From positions 1 through 64,000 of the forward strand of contig NZ_JAIUZY010000014.1 in the NCBI RefSeq assembly GCF_020171625.1: 64,000 bases of DNA, in the 5' to 3' direction. The position numbers were made by a program, and so were the translations under genes. Of the stretch, positions 59,056 through 64,000 are shown piece by piece; within the stretch, counting starts at the first letter, position 1, and every line of letters begins with the position of its first letter. The DNA comes from Salipiger bermudensis (lineage in GTDB: Bacteria > Pseudomonadota > Alphaproteobacteria > Rhodobacterales > Rhodobacteraceae). The notes under the pieces are model-generated. The model made no database searches. It had not been told where the DNA came from and was given only the letters and a program-made list of their open reading frames with translations.

Positions 59056-60777
59056 TCAGAACCACTCGAATTCCTCATCTCTGTCAGTTTCACTCTCGTC
59101 CGGGTCTGCCGCGCGTTCGGCGCGGTTTGACCCGAAGGTTCCGCAGATGTCATCGTGCAGATCGCGCTCCTCGGGGACGGAATAAAGCGTCCGCATCCAG
59201 TCGGCGGCTTCCGACGCCCGAGGCTCGCGGTAGAGGTCTTTCGGATCGGCCTCTGCGCAGGCGCTGCCGAGCTGGGCGGCAAGCTCCCGGACCCGATCGA
59301 CCAATGGGACCTGCACCTCCATTTGGTCGGCACAGGCGCCAAACGCCGCGGCGCTGGCCGGTCCGGTCTGGAGCAGGGCGTCCACCCCGCCCGAGAGCGC
59401 CTCCCAGACGTGGAGCACCTGGGTCAGACCGTCGAGATCGTCGCGGATGGCGTCAAGGTCCGCTGAAAGCGCCTGCTGATCCTGCGTATCCGAGATCGAG
59501 GCAACGATGTCGGACAGAATGTCGATCACTTCGAGACGCTGCTTCAGGCATCGTATGATCAGCTCGGCAATCTCGTGCGTGACGTAGTTCATTGCGCTGC
59601 CACCCCGGATCGCACTCCGGCTCAGCAACGAGACGTTCAAGCTGCCAAACTTCATCTCCTCGTCAAGGACGGCCTGACGATCCAGCGTGCCTTTGACATC
59701 CTGGACGATCGCGCCCATCGCCCTGAGACGGTCTTGCACCGTCCGGCGGTGTGCCTCACCCGCATAGAGCGCCGACAGGCTGCGCGCGCTGAGGTCCTTG
59801 ATCGGAAGGAACCGCGCCGACAAGGTTGTGTCCGACTTCAGGTCCTGCCCCATGGTCAGCAGGGTCCCGGTGTCGGCGCGAAGTGCGCGCAGGTCGCCGG
59901 GAAGCGTGGCCAGTTCCCGGCTCAGCGCATCGGCCGCCGCGTAGAGTTGGCGCACCCCGATGATGCCGATCAGCAGTCTGGCTGACGGGGGCGTCCCGGT
60001 GCCGGGCCCAAAGGTGCGCGAGGCTTCGATCACGTGCTCGAGACGCTGCCGGACACTGTCGCCGATCTGCAGCGACGCCAAGGTCCGGTTCATCCGTTCG
60101 CCGACCTGCCCGGCAACGTCATGAACGCGGCGCGCCGGGGCCTGCGCCTTGGCGAGATCGCCCGCCACCCCGCGGCCGAGCTGGGTAAGCCGGTCGCCGA
60201 TCCCTGCAAGACGTTGCAGACCGGCTGAGGCATGGGTTTCCTGCGCGGTCTTGAGAGACACCAATTGCAGTTTCAGCTCCCCGACCAGCGTCCTGAGATC
60301 CTGGAGGCCGGTAAAGCTCTTGAGCGAGAGTGACTTGATCTGCGCCGAGAAGTTCGAGCGACCGGCGAGCTCGGACTCGGCTTCCACGACGCTGGCGGTG
60401 CTAGAGAAGATTTCCAGCGTCCGGATCAGCTCCCGCAGGTGGTGCATCGGCGCCTCCACGCCCGATATGTCCGATATCATCCGCTCCAGTTTCCGAAGGC
60501 TTTCGGTGTCCCTCGTTTCGGCGTCCGCCAGCCGTGCGGCCAGCCGCCCGAGAACCTGTGGAAGATCCTGGTCGATGCAGGATTGCAGCCCCTCCTCGTA
60601 GGATCGCAGCGCGGCGATCATTTTGACGAGTCCCTCGCGCCCCGAGATCAGCGCCTCCACGGCCTCTGAGAAGGCGCCTTCGATCGCGTCGATTTCGGCC
60701 TGAAGCGCCGTAAGGGCGTCGTGCTGAGCGACCGGTCGGGCAAGAGGATTTGGCATAAGGCATTGATCGCATGGCAT
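59056..60777 (-). CDS. Soluble receptor-like chemosensory protein with CheR-docking C terminus
   Basis: This 573-aa, almost fully helical protein has no membrane segment. Residues 379-406 (SLNVSLLSRSA...EIAEL) line up without gaps with the tip of chemoreceptor signalling hairpins (consensus SLNAxIEAARA...EVRxLA). Residues 125-152 (SSTASVVEAESELAGRS) look like a second, weaker copy. The chain ends with an acidic flexible tail and EFEWF, which fits the CheR/CheB-tethering pentapeptide pattern x-aromatic-x-x-aromatic. It is divergent from STAS-cheY-cheA-cheW. The receptor role is inference; the key QTNLL-type contacts are lost. Confidence 0.7.
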   Translation of the reverse strand: MPCDQCLMPNPLARPVAQHDALTALQAEIDAIEGAFSEAVEALISGREGLVKMIAALRSYEEGLQSCIDQDLPQVLGRLAARLADAETRDTESLRKLERMISDISGVEAPMHHLRELIRTLEIFSSTASVVEAESELAGRSNFSAQIKSLSLKSFTGLQDLRTLVGELKLQLVSLKTAQETHASAGLQRLAGIGDRLTQLGRGVAGDLAKAQAPARRVHDVAGQVGERMNRTLASLQIGDSVRQRLEHVIEASRTFGPGTGTPPSARLLIGIIGVRQLYAAADALSRELATLPGDLRALRADTGTLLTMGQDLKSDTTLSARFLPIKDLSARSLSALYAGEAHRRTVQDRLRAMGAIVQDVKGTLDRQAVLDEEMKFGSLNVSLLSRSAIRGGSAMNYVTHEIAELIIRCLKQRLEVIDILSDIVASISDTQDQQALSADLDAIRDDLDGLTQVLHVWEALSGGVDALLQTGPASAAAFGACADQMEVQVPLVDRVRELAAQLGSACAEADPKDLYREPRASEAADWMRTLYSVPEERDLHDDICGTFGSNRAERAADPDESETDRDEEFEWF

Positions 60778-60883
60778 AGTCCGGGTGCGCGCCCTCCTGT
60801 CGCAGAGAGCATCGAAGACGCCCCAGAGCTATCGGACGCGGCTTAAAGAAGGGTTAGTCCGGGCCAGATTTTTCCTGCGCGGC

Positions 60884-60912
60884 TTGACGGTTTGTAAACC
60901 TCCCCCGGTCTA
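60884..60912 (+). promoter_or_regulatory. Possible promoter for STAS-cheY-cheA-cheW
   Basis: TTGACG (60884-60889) is followed by a small inverted repeat GTTTGTAAAC (60890-60899) and, at 17 nt, a weak -10 region GGTCTA (60907-60912). It is the best promoter-like site in the 162-base divergent gap. Confidence 0.3.
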
Positions 60913-60939
60913 ACCAAGGTCCAGTCGGTTCAAGTCAAG

Positions 60940-61242
60940 GTGGCACGGTTGCCCTATGTGATTTCTGACATCGAGGATGCGCGGCAGGGTCTGATCGGAC
61001 TTCTGAGCCACGAGACCTGCCGGATCGACCTGAGGGATGTTGCAGAGATCGACACGGCTGGCGCGCAACTCATCGCCGCTGCCCTCAACTCGGCCCGCGC
61101 ACACGGCAAGGACGTCGCCCTCGTCATGGCACCGGGCAGCCAGCCAGAGGCACTCTGGCGGGGCCTCGCCCTCGATCGGCTGTGCCAGCCACACACCAGC
61201 GAAATGGAGAGCCCGGGTGCCCAGACCGATACTTGTCGTTGA
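60940..61242 (+). CDS. STAS-domain protein of the chemosensory operon
   Basis: The 100-aa single STAS domain has the core CRIDLRDVAEIDTAGAQLIAAAL (residues 27-49 in part). Where anti-sigma antagonists have D-S it has D-T-A-G, as in STAS proteins found within che operons. The start codon is uncertain (GTG at 60940 or GTG at 60958). It overlaps cheY by 26 nt, so they are coupled. It may regulate or scaffold the CheA pathway. Confidence 0.75.
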   Translation: MARLPYVISDIEDARQGLIGLLSHETCRIDLRDVAEIDTAGAQLIAAALNSARAHGKDVALVMAPGSQPEALWRGLALDRLCQPHTSEMESPGAQTDTCR

Positions 61243-61582
61243 CGATTCCGATTCTGTTCGGCGGTTGATTTCCTCGACCCTGCGTCTTGCCGGCTATGAC
61301 ACGGTCGAGGCCCCCGATGGTCAGGCGGCCCTTGGCCTGGCGCGAAGTGCGGTCCCCCGGGCCGTCATCACGGACCAAAACATGCCCAACCTCGATGGGA
61401 TCGGGTTCATCCGCGCCTTTCGCAAGATGCCGGGCAGTGCGGGCGTGCCAGTGATTTTTCTCTCCACCGAGAACGCCGCCGCCCTCAAGCAGACGGCGCG
61501 CGAGGCCGGGGCGATCGGTTGGATGACCAAGCCGTTCGACGACAAGAAATTGCTAAGCGTCGTGAAGAAGGTTCTGGGCTGA
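61217..61582 (+). CDS. cheY: Response regulator, CheY family
   Basis: The 121-aa single receiver domain has the acidic pair in ILVVDDSDSVRR, the phospho-Asp in ITDQNMPNLDG, the Ser switch in VIFLSTEN and the Lys in MTKPFDD. It starts at a GTG at 61217 with a GGAGA site 7 nt ahead. Its stop shares one base with the cheA start. It would be phosphorylated by the adjacent CheA and relay the signal. Confidence 0.88.
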   Translation: MPRPILVVDDSDSVRRLISSTLRLAGYDTVEAPDGQAALGLARSAVPRAVITDQNMPNLDGIGFIRAFRKMPGSAGVPVIFLSTENAAALKQTAREAGAIGWMTKPFDDKKLLSVVKKVLG

Positions 61583-63504
61583 TGAGTGAGGAAACCGATC
61601 CGCTGTTCCTGATTGAGGCGCAACACCTGACGGAATCGCTTGAGGCGACCCTACTGGACCTGAAGGCCAACCCCACGGACAAGTCCCTGATCGACAGCGC
61701 CTTTCGAGATCTGCATACGCTCAAGGGCAGCGGGGCCATGTTCGGCCAGATCGCGATGTCGCAATTCCTCCACGACTTCGAAACCGCGTTCGAGGCGGTG
61801 CGTGAAGGAACGCTTAAGGTGACCCCGCAGCTCATCGAGATCGCCCTTTCGGCGCGCGACCACGTGGTGGACCTGTTGGCAGGCGGGTCGACCGAACCGG
61901 GCGCGCTGCTTCTGGGCAGGCTGGCTGCCCTTGTCTCGGGAGATCGCGAGGCGGAGGCCCAAGATCCGGGCTGGATCATGTCGTTCCGGCTTGCTCCGGA
62001 CACGCTCACGCTTGGCGGACGACCCGAAGCGATCCTCGCAGAATTTCGCGCCATGGGTGCCAGCAACATTGCCCCGATCCTTGATGATCTGCCACCGCTC
62101 GAAAAGATGGCGCCGGCGGAGCTGCACATCGGATGGCGGATGGATCTGCCCGGCGAGATCACCGAGGACGACATTCGCGATGTCTTTCTGTTCAACGAGG
62201 AGGGACTCGACCTGAACCTCAAGCCTGCTGGGGCCGCGGGTGCGGAGGAGGACGCCGATATCTCCCGCGGCGATGTCTCGTCCGCCATGGCAGCCCCTCC
62301 CGCCGAAGCCACCCGGACGTCGCCCCCTACCAGCGAGCGGTCCATGATGCGGGTGCCCGCCGAACGGCTGGACGAGATGATGGACAGGGTCGGTGAACTG
62401 GTCATCGCCGAGGCGCGCCTGGCCGAGCTTGCAGCCAGATCCCGCGATCCGCAACTGGTGGCGGTTGCCGAAGACATCGAGCGCCTGGCCTCCGGGATGC
62501 GCGAGACGACGATGTCAATCCGCATGACCCCCATCGAGACAATCACCGGCCGCTTCCGACGGCTGGTTCACGATCTCACCGGTACGCTGGGCAAACCCAT
62601 TACCCTTGAGATCGAGGGCCAGGACACGGAACTCGACAAGACGGTGATCGAAAAGCTCTCCGATCCCCTCATGCACCTGATCCGAAACGCGGCCGACCAC
62701 GGGCTGGAGACCGCCGAGCAACGTCGTGCCATGGGCAAGCCGGAGCATGGCACCATCCGGCTGTCGGCGCGCTATTCCGGCGCAGAGGTGATCATTTCGC
62801 TCTCCGATGACGGGCGCGGCCTCGAACTGGAAAAGATCCGCGCCCGGGCAGAAGACCGCGGCCTGATCGGACCGGACACAAATCTGGACGATGACGACGT
62901 CCGTGCCCTGATCCTCCAGCCCGGCTTCTCCACCGCAGACGCGGTCACCGAACTCAGTGGGCGCGGTGTTGGGATGGACGTGGTCAAGCGGACCATCGAG
63001 CAATTGCGCGGCAGGATCGACGTTGACAGCGAACCCGGCCATGGCACCCGGATCGACATGCGCCTCCCGTTGACCCTGGCGATCATCGACGGCCTCCTCG
63101 TCGAGATCGCGGACGAGCGGTATGCCATCCCTCTTGCGGCCGTCGAACACATCATCGAGTTGCCGGACGATGAGGTCGGAGACGCGCGGACGACGCGGTT
63201 TCTCAATATCCGTGACCAGCTCGTGCCGTACCTGCGGATGCGCGATCTGCTTGCCAGCAAGGGCGTGCCTGGCCCTCACCAGAAGGTGGTCGTCGTCACT
63301 GCCGCCGGCCTGCGGGTGGGGCTCACGGTGGACCGCATCATCGGGTCGTCGCAAACCGTCATCAAGCAGCTCTCGCCGCTGCATGCCGCGCTCAAGATGT
63401 TCTCCGGGGCCACCGTGCTCGGCAATGGATCGGTCGCTTTGATCCTCGACATCCCCCAGCTCGTGTCCTTCGGGCAAACCCTCGACAGCAGGGAGGCCGC
63501 GTGA
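61582..63504 (+). CDS. cheA: Chemotaxis histidine kinase CheA
   Basis: The 640-aa kinase has a P1 Hpt domain with phospho-His45 in LHTLKGSGAMFG. A P2-like middle domain follows (about 130-215: WIMSFRLAPDTL...DVFLFNEEGLDL). P3 dimerisation (VPAERLDEMMDRVGELVIAEARL) and the P4 ATPase (HLIRNAADHGLE, LSDDGRGL, GRGVGMDVV, GHGTRI) come next, and a P5 CheW-like domain ends it. All catalytic boxes are present. It overlaps cheY by 1 nt and cheW by 1 nt. It is probably driven by the soluble receptor-like protein or by receptors outside the window. Confidence 0.93.
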   Translation: MSEETDPLFLIEAQHLTESLEATLLDLKANPTDKSLIDSAFRDLHTLKGSGAMFGQIAMSQFLHDFETAFEAVREGTLKVTPQLIEIALSARDHVVDLLAGGSTEPGALLLGRLAALVSGDREAEAQDPGWIMSFRLAPDTLTLGGRPEAILAEFRAMGASNIAPILDDLPPLEKMAPAELHIGWRMDLPGEITEDDIRDVFLFNEEGLDLNLKPAGAAGAEEDADISRGDVSSAMAAPPAEATRTSPPTSERSMMRVPAERLDEMMDRVGELVIAEARLAELAARSRDPQLVAVAEDIERLASGMRETTMSIRMTPIETITGRFRRLVHDLTGTLGKPITLEIEGQDTELDKTVIEKLSDPLMHLIRNAADHGLETAEQRRAMGKPEHGTIRLSARYSGAEVIISLSDDGRGLELEKIRARAEDRGLIGPDTNLDDDDVRALILQPGFSTADAVTELSGRGVGMDVVKRTIEQLRGRIDVDSEPGHGTRIDMRLPLTLAIIDGLLVEIADERYAIPLAAVEHIIELPDDEVGDARTTRFLNIRDQLVPYLRMRDLLASKGVPGPHQKVVVVTAAGLRVGLTVDRIIGSSQTVIKQLSPLHAALKMFSGATVLGNGSVALILDIPQLVSFGQTLDSREAA

Positions 63505-64000
63505 TGTCCGACGGGACCCAAAGAGCGCAGCAGGCGAGCAGGGGCGCGAGTGCGCCTCCGCTGAAACGTTGGGACATGGTGACCTTTCGCCTCGGCGGCG
63601 AGCTTCTTGCGATCGAGACCAACGTCTTGCGAACCGTGATCGAGCCGGGCGAGGTCACCCGGGTCCCGAACGCGCCGCCTTTCGCGGCGGGCCTGCTGAA
63701 CGTGCGCGGCGCCGTGGTGCCGCTCACCGACCTGCGCATTCCGCTTCGAATGCCGCAAAACGACGTGAACGAAGACACCCGGATCCTCGTCCTTGATCTC
63801 CCACTCGCCGACACGCCCTCCGTCGTGGGGGTGCTGGCGGAACAGGTCCACGAAGTGACCAAGGTGACGTCCGCCAGCCTCGAGGACGTTCCCGCCGTCG
63901 GCGCAAGCTGGCCTCGCCACTACGTCCGGGCGGTCGGCCGACAGGGTGAGCGCTTCTTCATCATCCCCGATCTTGGTGCGATCTTCGCGGGTTATCTCGC
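63504..64000 (+). CDS. cheW: Chemotaxis coupling protein CheW (partial, runs off the window)
   Basis: An open frame starts at the ATG overlapping the cheA stop and runs to the window end without a stop (165 codons). After a 20-residue leader it has the CheW fold: WDMVTFRLGGELLAIETNVLR, FAAGLLNVRGAVVPLTDLR and TRILVLDLPLADTPSVVGVLAEQVHEVTKV (in part). It links receptor tips to CheA P5. The 3' end is outside the window. Confidence 0.9.
   Translation, partial: MSDGTQRAQQASRGASAPPLKRWDMVTFRLGGELLAIETNVLRTVIEPGEVTRVPNAPPFAAGLLNVRGAVVPLTDLRIPLRMPQNDVNEDTRILVLDLPLADTPSVVGVLAEQVHEVTKVTSASLEDVPAVGASWPRHYVRAVGRQGERFFIIPDLGAIFAGYL

Follow-up and report, generated by a model that had tools for sequence, protein, structure and literature searches.

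In Salipiger bermudensis, a gene on the minus strand is divergent from a chemotaxis operon and raises the question of what a soluble protein related to chemoreceptors might do beside cheY, cheA and cheW. The window, i.e. the whole stretch of DNA analyzed, comprises the first 64,000 nucleotides of contig 14 (bases 1-64000) in a genome of 4.74 Mb. A sequence-only reading had described the product, here termed P0001, as a helical protein lacking a membrane segment, with two signaling tips in one chain and a C-terminal pentapeptide for docking of CheR. In this work, profile searches, structure prediction and comparison of gene neighborhoods were applied to P0001 and its homologues.

The gene, its cluster and its family

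The 573-residue open frame was verified on the minus strand (Table 1), and its translation contains what the earlier description was based on, namely the tail EFEWF and the two segments at residues 125-152 and 379-406. The highest Kyte-Doolittle mean over 19 residues is 1.35, in agreement with a protein without membrane segment, and the AlphaFold2 model (21-sequence alignment, mean pLDDT 84.6) is nearly all-helical. Pfam agrees with the assignment of the neighbors as STAS, cheY, cheA and cheW; beyond the window end, the cluster continues with a gene for a methyl-accepting chemotaxis protein (MCP) containing 4HB and HAMP domains, followed by cheW, cheR and cheB. By eye, the CheY of this cluster has the usual acidic pocket, phospho-acceptor aspartate and lysine. 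In total, two CheA, three CheR, five MCP and one FliM matches were identified in the genome, and Pfam gave zero matches to CheZ.

The cheR gene of the cluster is broken across two frames in the assembly (L006:8202-9051, i.e. contig 14, 66201-67050), one containing the CheR_N domain and the other the SAM domain. FFRE is absent after TTNKTD, and the five relatives inspected have TTNKTDFFRE; the break is either a true mutation or an assembly error. The possibility that P0001 is itself a pseudogene was rejected because the protein keeps every residue that is invariant across 36 homologues.

Table 1. Coordinates of the P0001 gene, its segments and the neighboring genes in the window
Feature	Position	Strand	Evidence
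P0001, whole gene, 573-aa soluble tandem-hairpin protein	59056..60777	-	open frame, AlphaFold2 model
Hairpin 1, residues 15-256	60010..60735	-	model helices 15-134 and 143-256; MCP and McpA-like profile matches
Tip region of hairpin 1, residues 125-152	60322..60405	-	in register with MCP tip
LQIGDSVRQRLEHV block, residues 236-249, proposed phosphatase site D240/Q244	60031..60072	-	Q237, D240, Q244, R245 in 36/36
Hairpin 2, residues 264-488	59314..59988	-	model; C-half vs MCP 3.6e-14
Tip region of hairpin 2, residues 379-406	59560..59643	-	N381 in 36/36; aligned with MCP tip
Y..ER..H block, residues 532-541	59155..59184	-	Y532, E537, R538 in 36/36, H541 in 35/36
Disordered acidic tail, residues 549-573, ends EFEWF, proposed CheY-P docking peptide	59059..59133	-	pLDDT <50
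Intergenic stretch between P0001 and STAS genes, divergent pair	60778..60939	.	162 bases
STAS-domain gene	60940..61242	+	Pfam STAS_2 8.3e-8
cheY (open-frame limits, start provisional; receiver from about 61229)	61037..61582	+	Pfam Response_reg 1e-23, residues 65-176
cheA	61519..63504	+	Hpt, H-kinase_dim, HATPase_c, CheW domains (Pfam)
cheW, continues beyond window	63501..64000	+	Pfam CheW 2.5e-28; full-length in L006

P0001 belongs to a conserved family that is unannotated or misnamed. Searched alone, the protein has no match above the curated cut-offs in Pfam or NCBIfam, including MCPsignal and CheZ (PF04344) in Pfam; weak Pfam matches (Baculo_PEP_C, ABC_tran_CTD, DUF948 and similar) were dismissed as coiled-coil background. 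The single-sequence search found nothing in the genome contigs set, the plasmids or the PDB sequences, and homologues in 3 of 149 genomes of its bacterial family, its own included. A profile of three sequences led to full-length relatives within Rhodobacteraceae. With a 21-sequence profile, matches extended to 327 of 398 genomes in the phylum, chiefly via ordinary MCPs. Full-length matches came from 16 of the 398: the genome of P0001 itself, one more of the same family, 13 alphaproteobacterial genomes that belong to other families, and one that does not belong to Alphaproteobacteria. By a 33-sequence profile (E<=1e-40), the family occurs in 30 of 388 genomes of the bacterial family of P0001; it was not found in the only other genome of the same genus among the 388 sampled. 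Rhizobium and its close kin carry the family as well, including R. johnstonii (leguminosarum) 3841 (80 of at least 342 confirmed loci). Among 18 plasmid records, 14 cover at least 80% of the query; the plasmid-borne members listed (15 of the 18) are annotated as ‘type VII secretion target’ (two), ‘chemotaxis protein’ (one) or ‘hypothetical protein’ (two), and the others are unlabelled.

The gene neighborhoods are those of chemotaxis genes. Fifteen of the first 21 homologues start at most 4 bases from the end of cheB, five, P0001 among them, are divergent from STAS/cheY, and one at a contig end adjoins an MCP gene with cheY nearby. The homologue in strain 3841 is divergent from the cheY gene that leads a cheY-cheA-cheW-MCP-MCP run. 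From its gene order, this cluster is the Che2 system, given as RL4036-RL4028 and assigned to class F8 (PMC7617929). At two loci (L059:4739-5923 and L060:6799-7980), the family gene adjoins an MCP gene for 393-394 residues with an N terminus that looks PAS-like by eye.

Residue counts below refer to a set of 36 homologues, which is unweighted, includes near-duplicates such as L066-L069 and L071-L073, and leaves out L060, found later. Two further family sets were compiled: A5, in which L068, L069, L072 and L073 were left out and L060 was added, and A6, in which L060, L065, L068, L069, L072 and L073 were left out.

Fold and kinship of the two halves

The AlphaFold2 model of P0001 consists of two long antiparallel hairpins, formed by helices 15-134/143-256 and 264-388/393-488, followed by small helices and a disordered tail. 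Kinship with chemoreceptors emerges at the level of profiles. MCPsignal matches two relatives with E = 3.4e-5 and 4.1e-4, both below the Pfam cut-off; at E<=0.1 it matches 9 of 21 relatives, and Baculo_PEP_C, which we take as coiled-coil noise, matches 11 of 21. The 21-sequence family profile matches the chemoreceptor of Thermotoga maritima with E=1e-20 over model positions 294-473. In hhalign comparisons with a set of 35 MCP domains, which was drawn from loci including L077 and so may contain one McpA-like sequence, the C-terminal half gave 3.6e-14 and the N-terminal half 6.8e-7; the two halves matched each other with 5.9e-10. The reversed-profile controls of these runs, from 9e-5 to 2.9e-3, represent the coiled-coil background; those for the comparisons of the two halves with MCPs lay between 1.5e-3 and 2.9e-3.

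Structural comparison adds less. Modeled alone (residues 14-262), the N-terminal half has a pLDDT of 89.4; all 11 of its Foldseek matches at E<=0.001 are chemoreceptors, and it superimposes on the E. coli core signaling unit with a Z of 13.7 over 247 residues (rmsd 2.9). The same structural list includes an Smc coiled coil at Z 13.5, and the weight is therefore placed on sequence comparison rather than on structure. For the whole protein, TTYH channels and pore-forming proteins rank with or above receptors, as do long helical bundles generally. CheZ is absent from the structural matches listed for the N-terminal half, which excludes nothing.

Both proposed tips are genuine because each half matches MCPs above the reversed controls, and the weaker one, at 125-152, belongs to a half that aligns with MCPs in register. 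These profile matches show P0001 and its relatives as two chemoreceptor hairpins in tandem, apparently copies of one unit. The earlier description was thus upheld as regards a soluble protein of divergent sequence that derives from receptors, has two hairpins and lies beside a che operon, and we regard this architecture and kinship as very likely. The loss of the usual tip residues was confirmed too: the family has the long hairpin and lacks the canonical CheA/CheW-binding residues of the QTNLLALNAAIEAARAGE type, though N381 is kept in all 36 homologues. P0001 may bind CheA/CheW differently, as the sequence-only reading suggested. Of the three outcomes that this reading named as refuting, one was observed: the C terminus is not conserved as a CheR-docking pentapeptide. 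The other two did not occur, since profile search finds MCPs and the predicted fold is a pair of long antiparallel hairpins.

Conserved blocks shared with McpA-like receptors

Among the positions counted, Q237, D240, Q244, R245, N381, Y532, E537 and R538 are invariant in the 36 homologues. The tightest conserved run is not a tip; it is LQxGDxxRQRLEHV at residues 236-249. The sequence-only reading had picked out the tips and the tail EFEWF and passed over this strongest feature, the D240-x3-Q244-R245 block. The alignments show the two copies of the hairpin as differently equipped: the first carries the D-x3-Q block, and the second the Y..ER..H block and the tail.

A counterpart of these blocks was found in Gammaproteobacteria. 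L077, a receptor of 400 residues matched by the family profile, has a hydrophobic stretch at the N-terminal end and a canonical QTNLLALNAAIEAARAGE tip, after which it reads LQFQDRVSQ, then SYTMPEQHAIH, then SDITFF; its gene directly precedes cheY and cheA. A profile of L077 and two plasmid relatives (E<=1e-35) detected such receptors in 27 of 321 gammaproteobacterial genomes, and 30 of the 32 matched rows, those with loci, were used here. Q331, F332, D334, Q338 and the terminal F are invariant in these 30 sequences, followed by Q333 (29/30), Y374 and H383 (27/30 each) and E378 (23/30). A hydrophobic N-terminal stretch is present in 27. Within the C-terminal five residues, position two is occupied by I, V or L in all 30, and by V in Pseudomonas aeruginosa McpA (PMC7184735). 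For 27 of the 30, the flanking sequence retrieved includes a cheY match, which at L235 is doubtful as it overlaps the receptor. Seven longer stretches were inspected. In L271-L274 the order is McpA-like receptor, cheY, cheA, cheW, MCP (except in L274), cheR and cheB, with a CheD-like frame added in L271; L275 has McpA-like receptor, cheY, cheA, MCP and cheW with no further match, L277 has McpA-like receptor, cheY, cheA, cheW and MCP to the end of the stretch, and L276 has no frame above threshold. In the L271 stretch (genome G576), a McpA-like receptor occurs at two places separated by about 13 kb, with a separate cheY and cheA after each.

Gammaproteobacterial F7 clusters contain ‘McpA-like’ receptors, for example CttP/PA0180 and VCA1088 (PMC7184735, PMC7534058), which are described as having a membrane region, no pentapeptide, and a strikingly conserved C terminus whose role is unclear; in stage 1-2 F7 clusters cheY is present and cheZ is absent from the cluster (PMC7184735). 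From gene order and the C terminus, rather than from direct alignment with PA0180 or VCA1088, we infer that the 30 receptors belong to this type.

The N-terminal half of the P0001 family matches the McpA-like set with E=1e-15 over 232 columns, placing LQiGDstRQRLEHV on LQFQDRvSQiLgHV, and the C-terminal half plus tail matches it with E=1.9e-21 over 271 columns, placing YTMxxERxIH on YTxxEQRxxH; the reversed controls gave 7.8e-4, 0.016, 0.041 and 0.036. The distance from tip to D is 113 residues in the family and 115 in the McpA-like receptors, and that from tip to Y is 151 and 155. These alignments show the block of P0001 as the same block in the same place as in McpA-like receptors. With the matches in register and the spacings in agreement, the P0001 chain would therefore be two copies of the McpA unit (hairpin, D-x3-Q, Y..E..H and F-ending tail), and one chain would then equal a receptor dimer; the single hairpin and the membrane segment of McpA-like receptors are not found in it.

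The tail bears on the proposal that P0001 is an array adaptor or cytosolic receptor tethering CheR/CheB via EFEWF. The receptor hairpins are genuine, EFEWF itself fits the x-aromatic-x-x-aromatic pattern, and another MCP of the same genome (L001, contig 4) ends in MWEDF, a canonical CheR-docking pentapeptide. However, the pattern is found in only 2 of 36 homologues (P0001 and L044) and in 0 of 30 McpA-like sequences, which accords with the absence of a pentapeptide from the McpA-like sequences of PMC7184735; the cheR gene of the cluster is split, with two other CheR in the genome; and the tether leaves the D-x3-Q block unexplained. We therefore consider it improbable. In 32 of 36 homologues the C-terminal residue is F, often within DDIFF, DDILF or ADALF; the other four comprise two with FFG at the end, one with FL, and the tail-less L043. 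This last protein (L043:6768-8441) is among the two nearest relatives of P0001; D-x3-Q and Y..ER..H are both retained in it, and its sequence stops at HMS with no acidic tail.

A candidate CheY-P phosphatase and its relation to known systems

The phosphatase residues of E. coli CheZ are D143 and Q147; a CheZ chain forms a single hairpin and is not known to have a receptor tip. CheZ is recognized by the signature AXXFQ adjoining DXXXQ, with D and Q as the phosphatase pair, and its C terminus is a CheY-binding region (PMC7750401). FQD-x3-Q is present in 29 of 30 McpA-like sequences. Two of 180 further MCP frames have it as well (L207, L208), and both are themselves McpA-like, judged on length and tail. 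The longer pattern A..FQD...Q occurs in 29 of 30 alphaproteobacterial CheZ and in 9 of 30 McpA-like sequences, a count that rises to 24 of 30 when S may replace A. In profile comparison, the McpA-like set matches 30 alphaproteobacterial CheZ with 4e-5 (FQDRVSQ on FQDITGQ; controls 0.018 and 0.073), alpha- plus gammaproteobacterial CheZ with 2.5e-5 (controls 0.0038 and 0.0026), and gammaproteobacterial CheZ alone with 1.5e-5 (controls 0.16 and 0.19), the last CheZ set having been chosen by motif: it comprises the 16 of 30 loci with frames reading FQDLTGQ, all 16 of which end in SLGF. Ordinary MCPs against CheZ gave 0.0053 to 0.062. These comparisons lend moderate support to a CheZ likeness of the McpA-like receptor block.

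Direct homology between the P0001 family and CheZ was not upheld: their comparison gave 0.0029, then 1e-3 against reversed controls of 5.1e-4 and 1.6e-3, and larger CheZ sets gave 0.0057 and 0.023, which is control level. A stiff motif matrix ranks the block first in 22 of 36 homologues with scores inside the shuffled range. With softer matrices, the CheZ matrix picks the family block in 26 of 36, and the family block matrix finds the CheZ catalytic site as the best window in 30 of 30 CheZ, with a mean of 13.2 bits. Scored with this family matrix, 0.7% of the 855 background frames attain the CheZ mean and 21% the lowest CheZ score, and the top background score of 43.5 suggests that relatives were left in the background. 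For the second methylation helix, a matrix gave a window in one MCP only. One 675-residue MCP frame (L235:1024-3051) reads FQDVIRQRLEHV and has the tail DIELF; as read from the sequence, its motifs are intermediate between those of CheZ, McpA-like receptors and the tandem family.

The control-level comparison with CheZ fits two explanations other than catalysis. The D-x3-Q block might be a relic of the second methylation helix of receptors, with its CheZ likeness due to chance. It lies about 113 residues past the tip, near Tsr 495 as estimated from an end-to-end alignment of the N-terminal half with Tsr, a region that we take to be near that helix. Against a relic speak the rarity of FQD-x3-Q in other MCP frames (2 of 180, both McpA-like by length and tail) and the McpA-like match to CheZ, which beats its reversed controls, ordinary MCPs giving 0.0053 to 0.062; we rate a relic as slightly less probable even than the CheR/CheB tether. 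Alternatively, P0001 might be a non-catalytic scaffold or sink for CheY, the tail keeping CheY-P at the array and D-x3-Q being structural. The same conservation would be expected, and the tail F is conserved like the block; yet D, Q and R that are invariant amid varying neighbors, and a CheZ-like FQD-x3-Q retained in the receptor relatives, fit catalysis better, and such a scaffold appears rather unlikely.

On balance, P0001 is probably a receptor-derived CheY-P phosphatase, the signal terminator of a cheZ-less cluster. We favor this reading because D240, Q244 and R245 are present in all 36 homologues, both halves match McpA-like receptors with the blocks in register and the spacings in agreement, those receptors match CheZ above controls, the family block matrix finds the catalytic site of CheZ, the homologues are linked to cheB or cheY, and no CheZ was detected in the genome by Pfam. 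Against it weigh the control-level comparison with CheZ and the stiff matrix, the shortness of D-x3-Q, the choice of the gammaproteobacterial CheZ by motif, and the EFEWF end of P0001, which is unlike the family tail. In the proposed mechanism, the two hairpins would pack as an intramolecular four-helix bundle, like the paired chains of a dimeric receptor or of dimeric CheZ; the acidic F-ending tail would capture CheY-P; D240 and Q244 would promote hydrolysis of the CheY aspartyl phosphate, as D143 and Q147 do in E. coli CheZ; and the degenerate tips may serve to keep P0001 at the array.

These observations suggest an off-switch built into a receptor-like protein in some bacteria. More tentatively, receptor and phosphatase may be one molecule in cheZ-less clusters, McpA-like in Gammaproteobacteria and a soluble tandem pseudo-dimer in Alphaproteobacteria, with a CheZ-type site near the hairpin base. 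If so, the signal would be made and ended within the same array, and a receptor helix of this kind may have a common origin with CheZ. The D-x3-Q block and the tail offer a testable answer to the role of the McpA-like C terminus and to the cheZ-less F7 clusters (PMC7184735), and they suggest a function for a family annotated as ‘hypothetical protein’, ‘chemotaxis protein’ or ‘type VII secretion target’, or left unlabelled. A literature search, mainly outside subscription journals and without supplements, found no CheZ-like motif or phosphatase role assigned to McpA-like receptors or to the P0001 family.

Four known systems can be compared with P0001. CheT of Sinorhizobium meliloti, a DXXXQ protein, is reported to dephosphorylate one of two CheY and to bind CheR, a precedent for an enzyme that acts like CheZ and does not resemble it in sequence. 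By its description, it resembles P0001 as a D-x3-Q protein of an alphaproteobacterial che system that is unrecognizable as CheZ by sequence and acts on CheY, as is proposed for P0001, and differs in that it is reported in complex with CheR and that a receptor hairpin is absent from the part of its description available to us (PMC12654446). CheZ (PF04344) shares with P0001 the helical hairpin, the acidic C-terminal tail (F-ending in gammaproteobacterial CheZ), and the D-x3-Q pair on a long helix, followed by R in alphaproteobacterial CheZ; P0001 differs in having no Pfam match to CheZ and a profile comparison at control level. With ordinary MCPs (MCPsignal, PF00015), both halves of P0001 share the type of hairpin, whereas P0001 has mostly lost the tip consensus, has two hairpins per chain, and has added the D-x3-Q block and the tail. 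The McpA-like receptors share with P0001 a hairpin with a tip, D-x3-Q about 115 residues further on, Y..E..H, an F-ending tail, no pentapeptide as a family, and a place beside cheY; they are single hairpins, mostly membrane-anchored and with a canonical tip, whereas P0001 is soluble and tandem, with degenerate tips.
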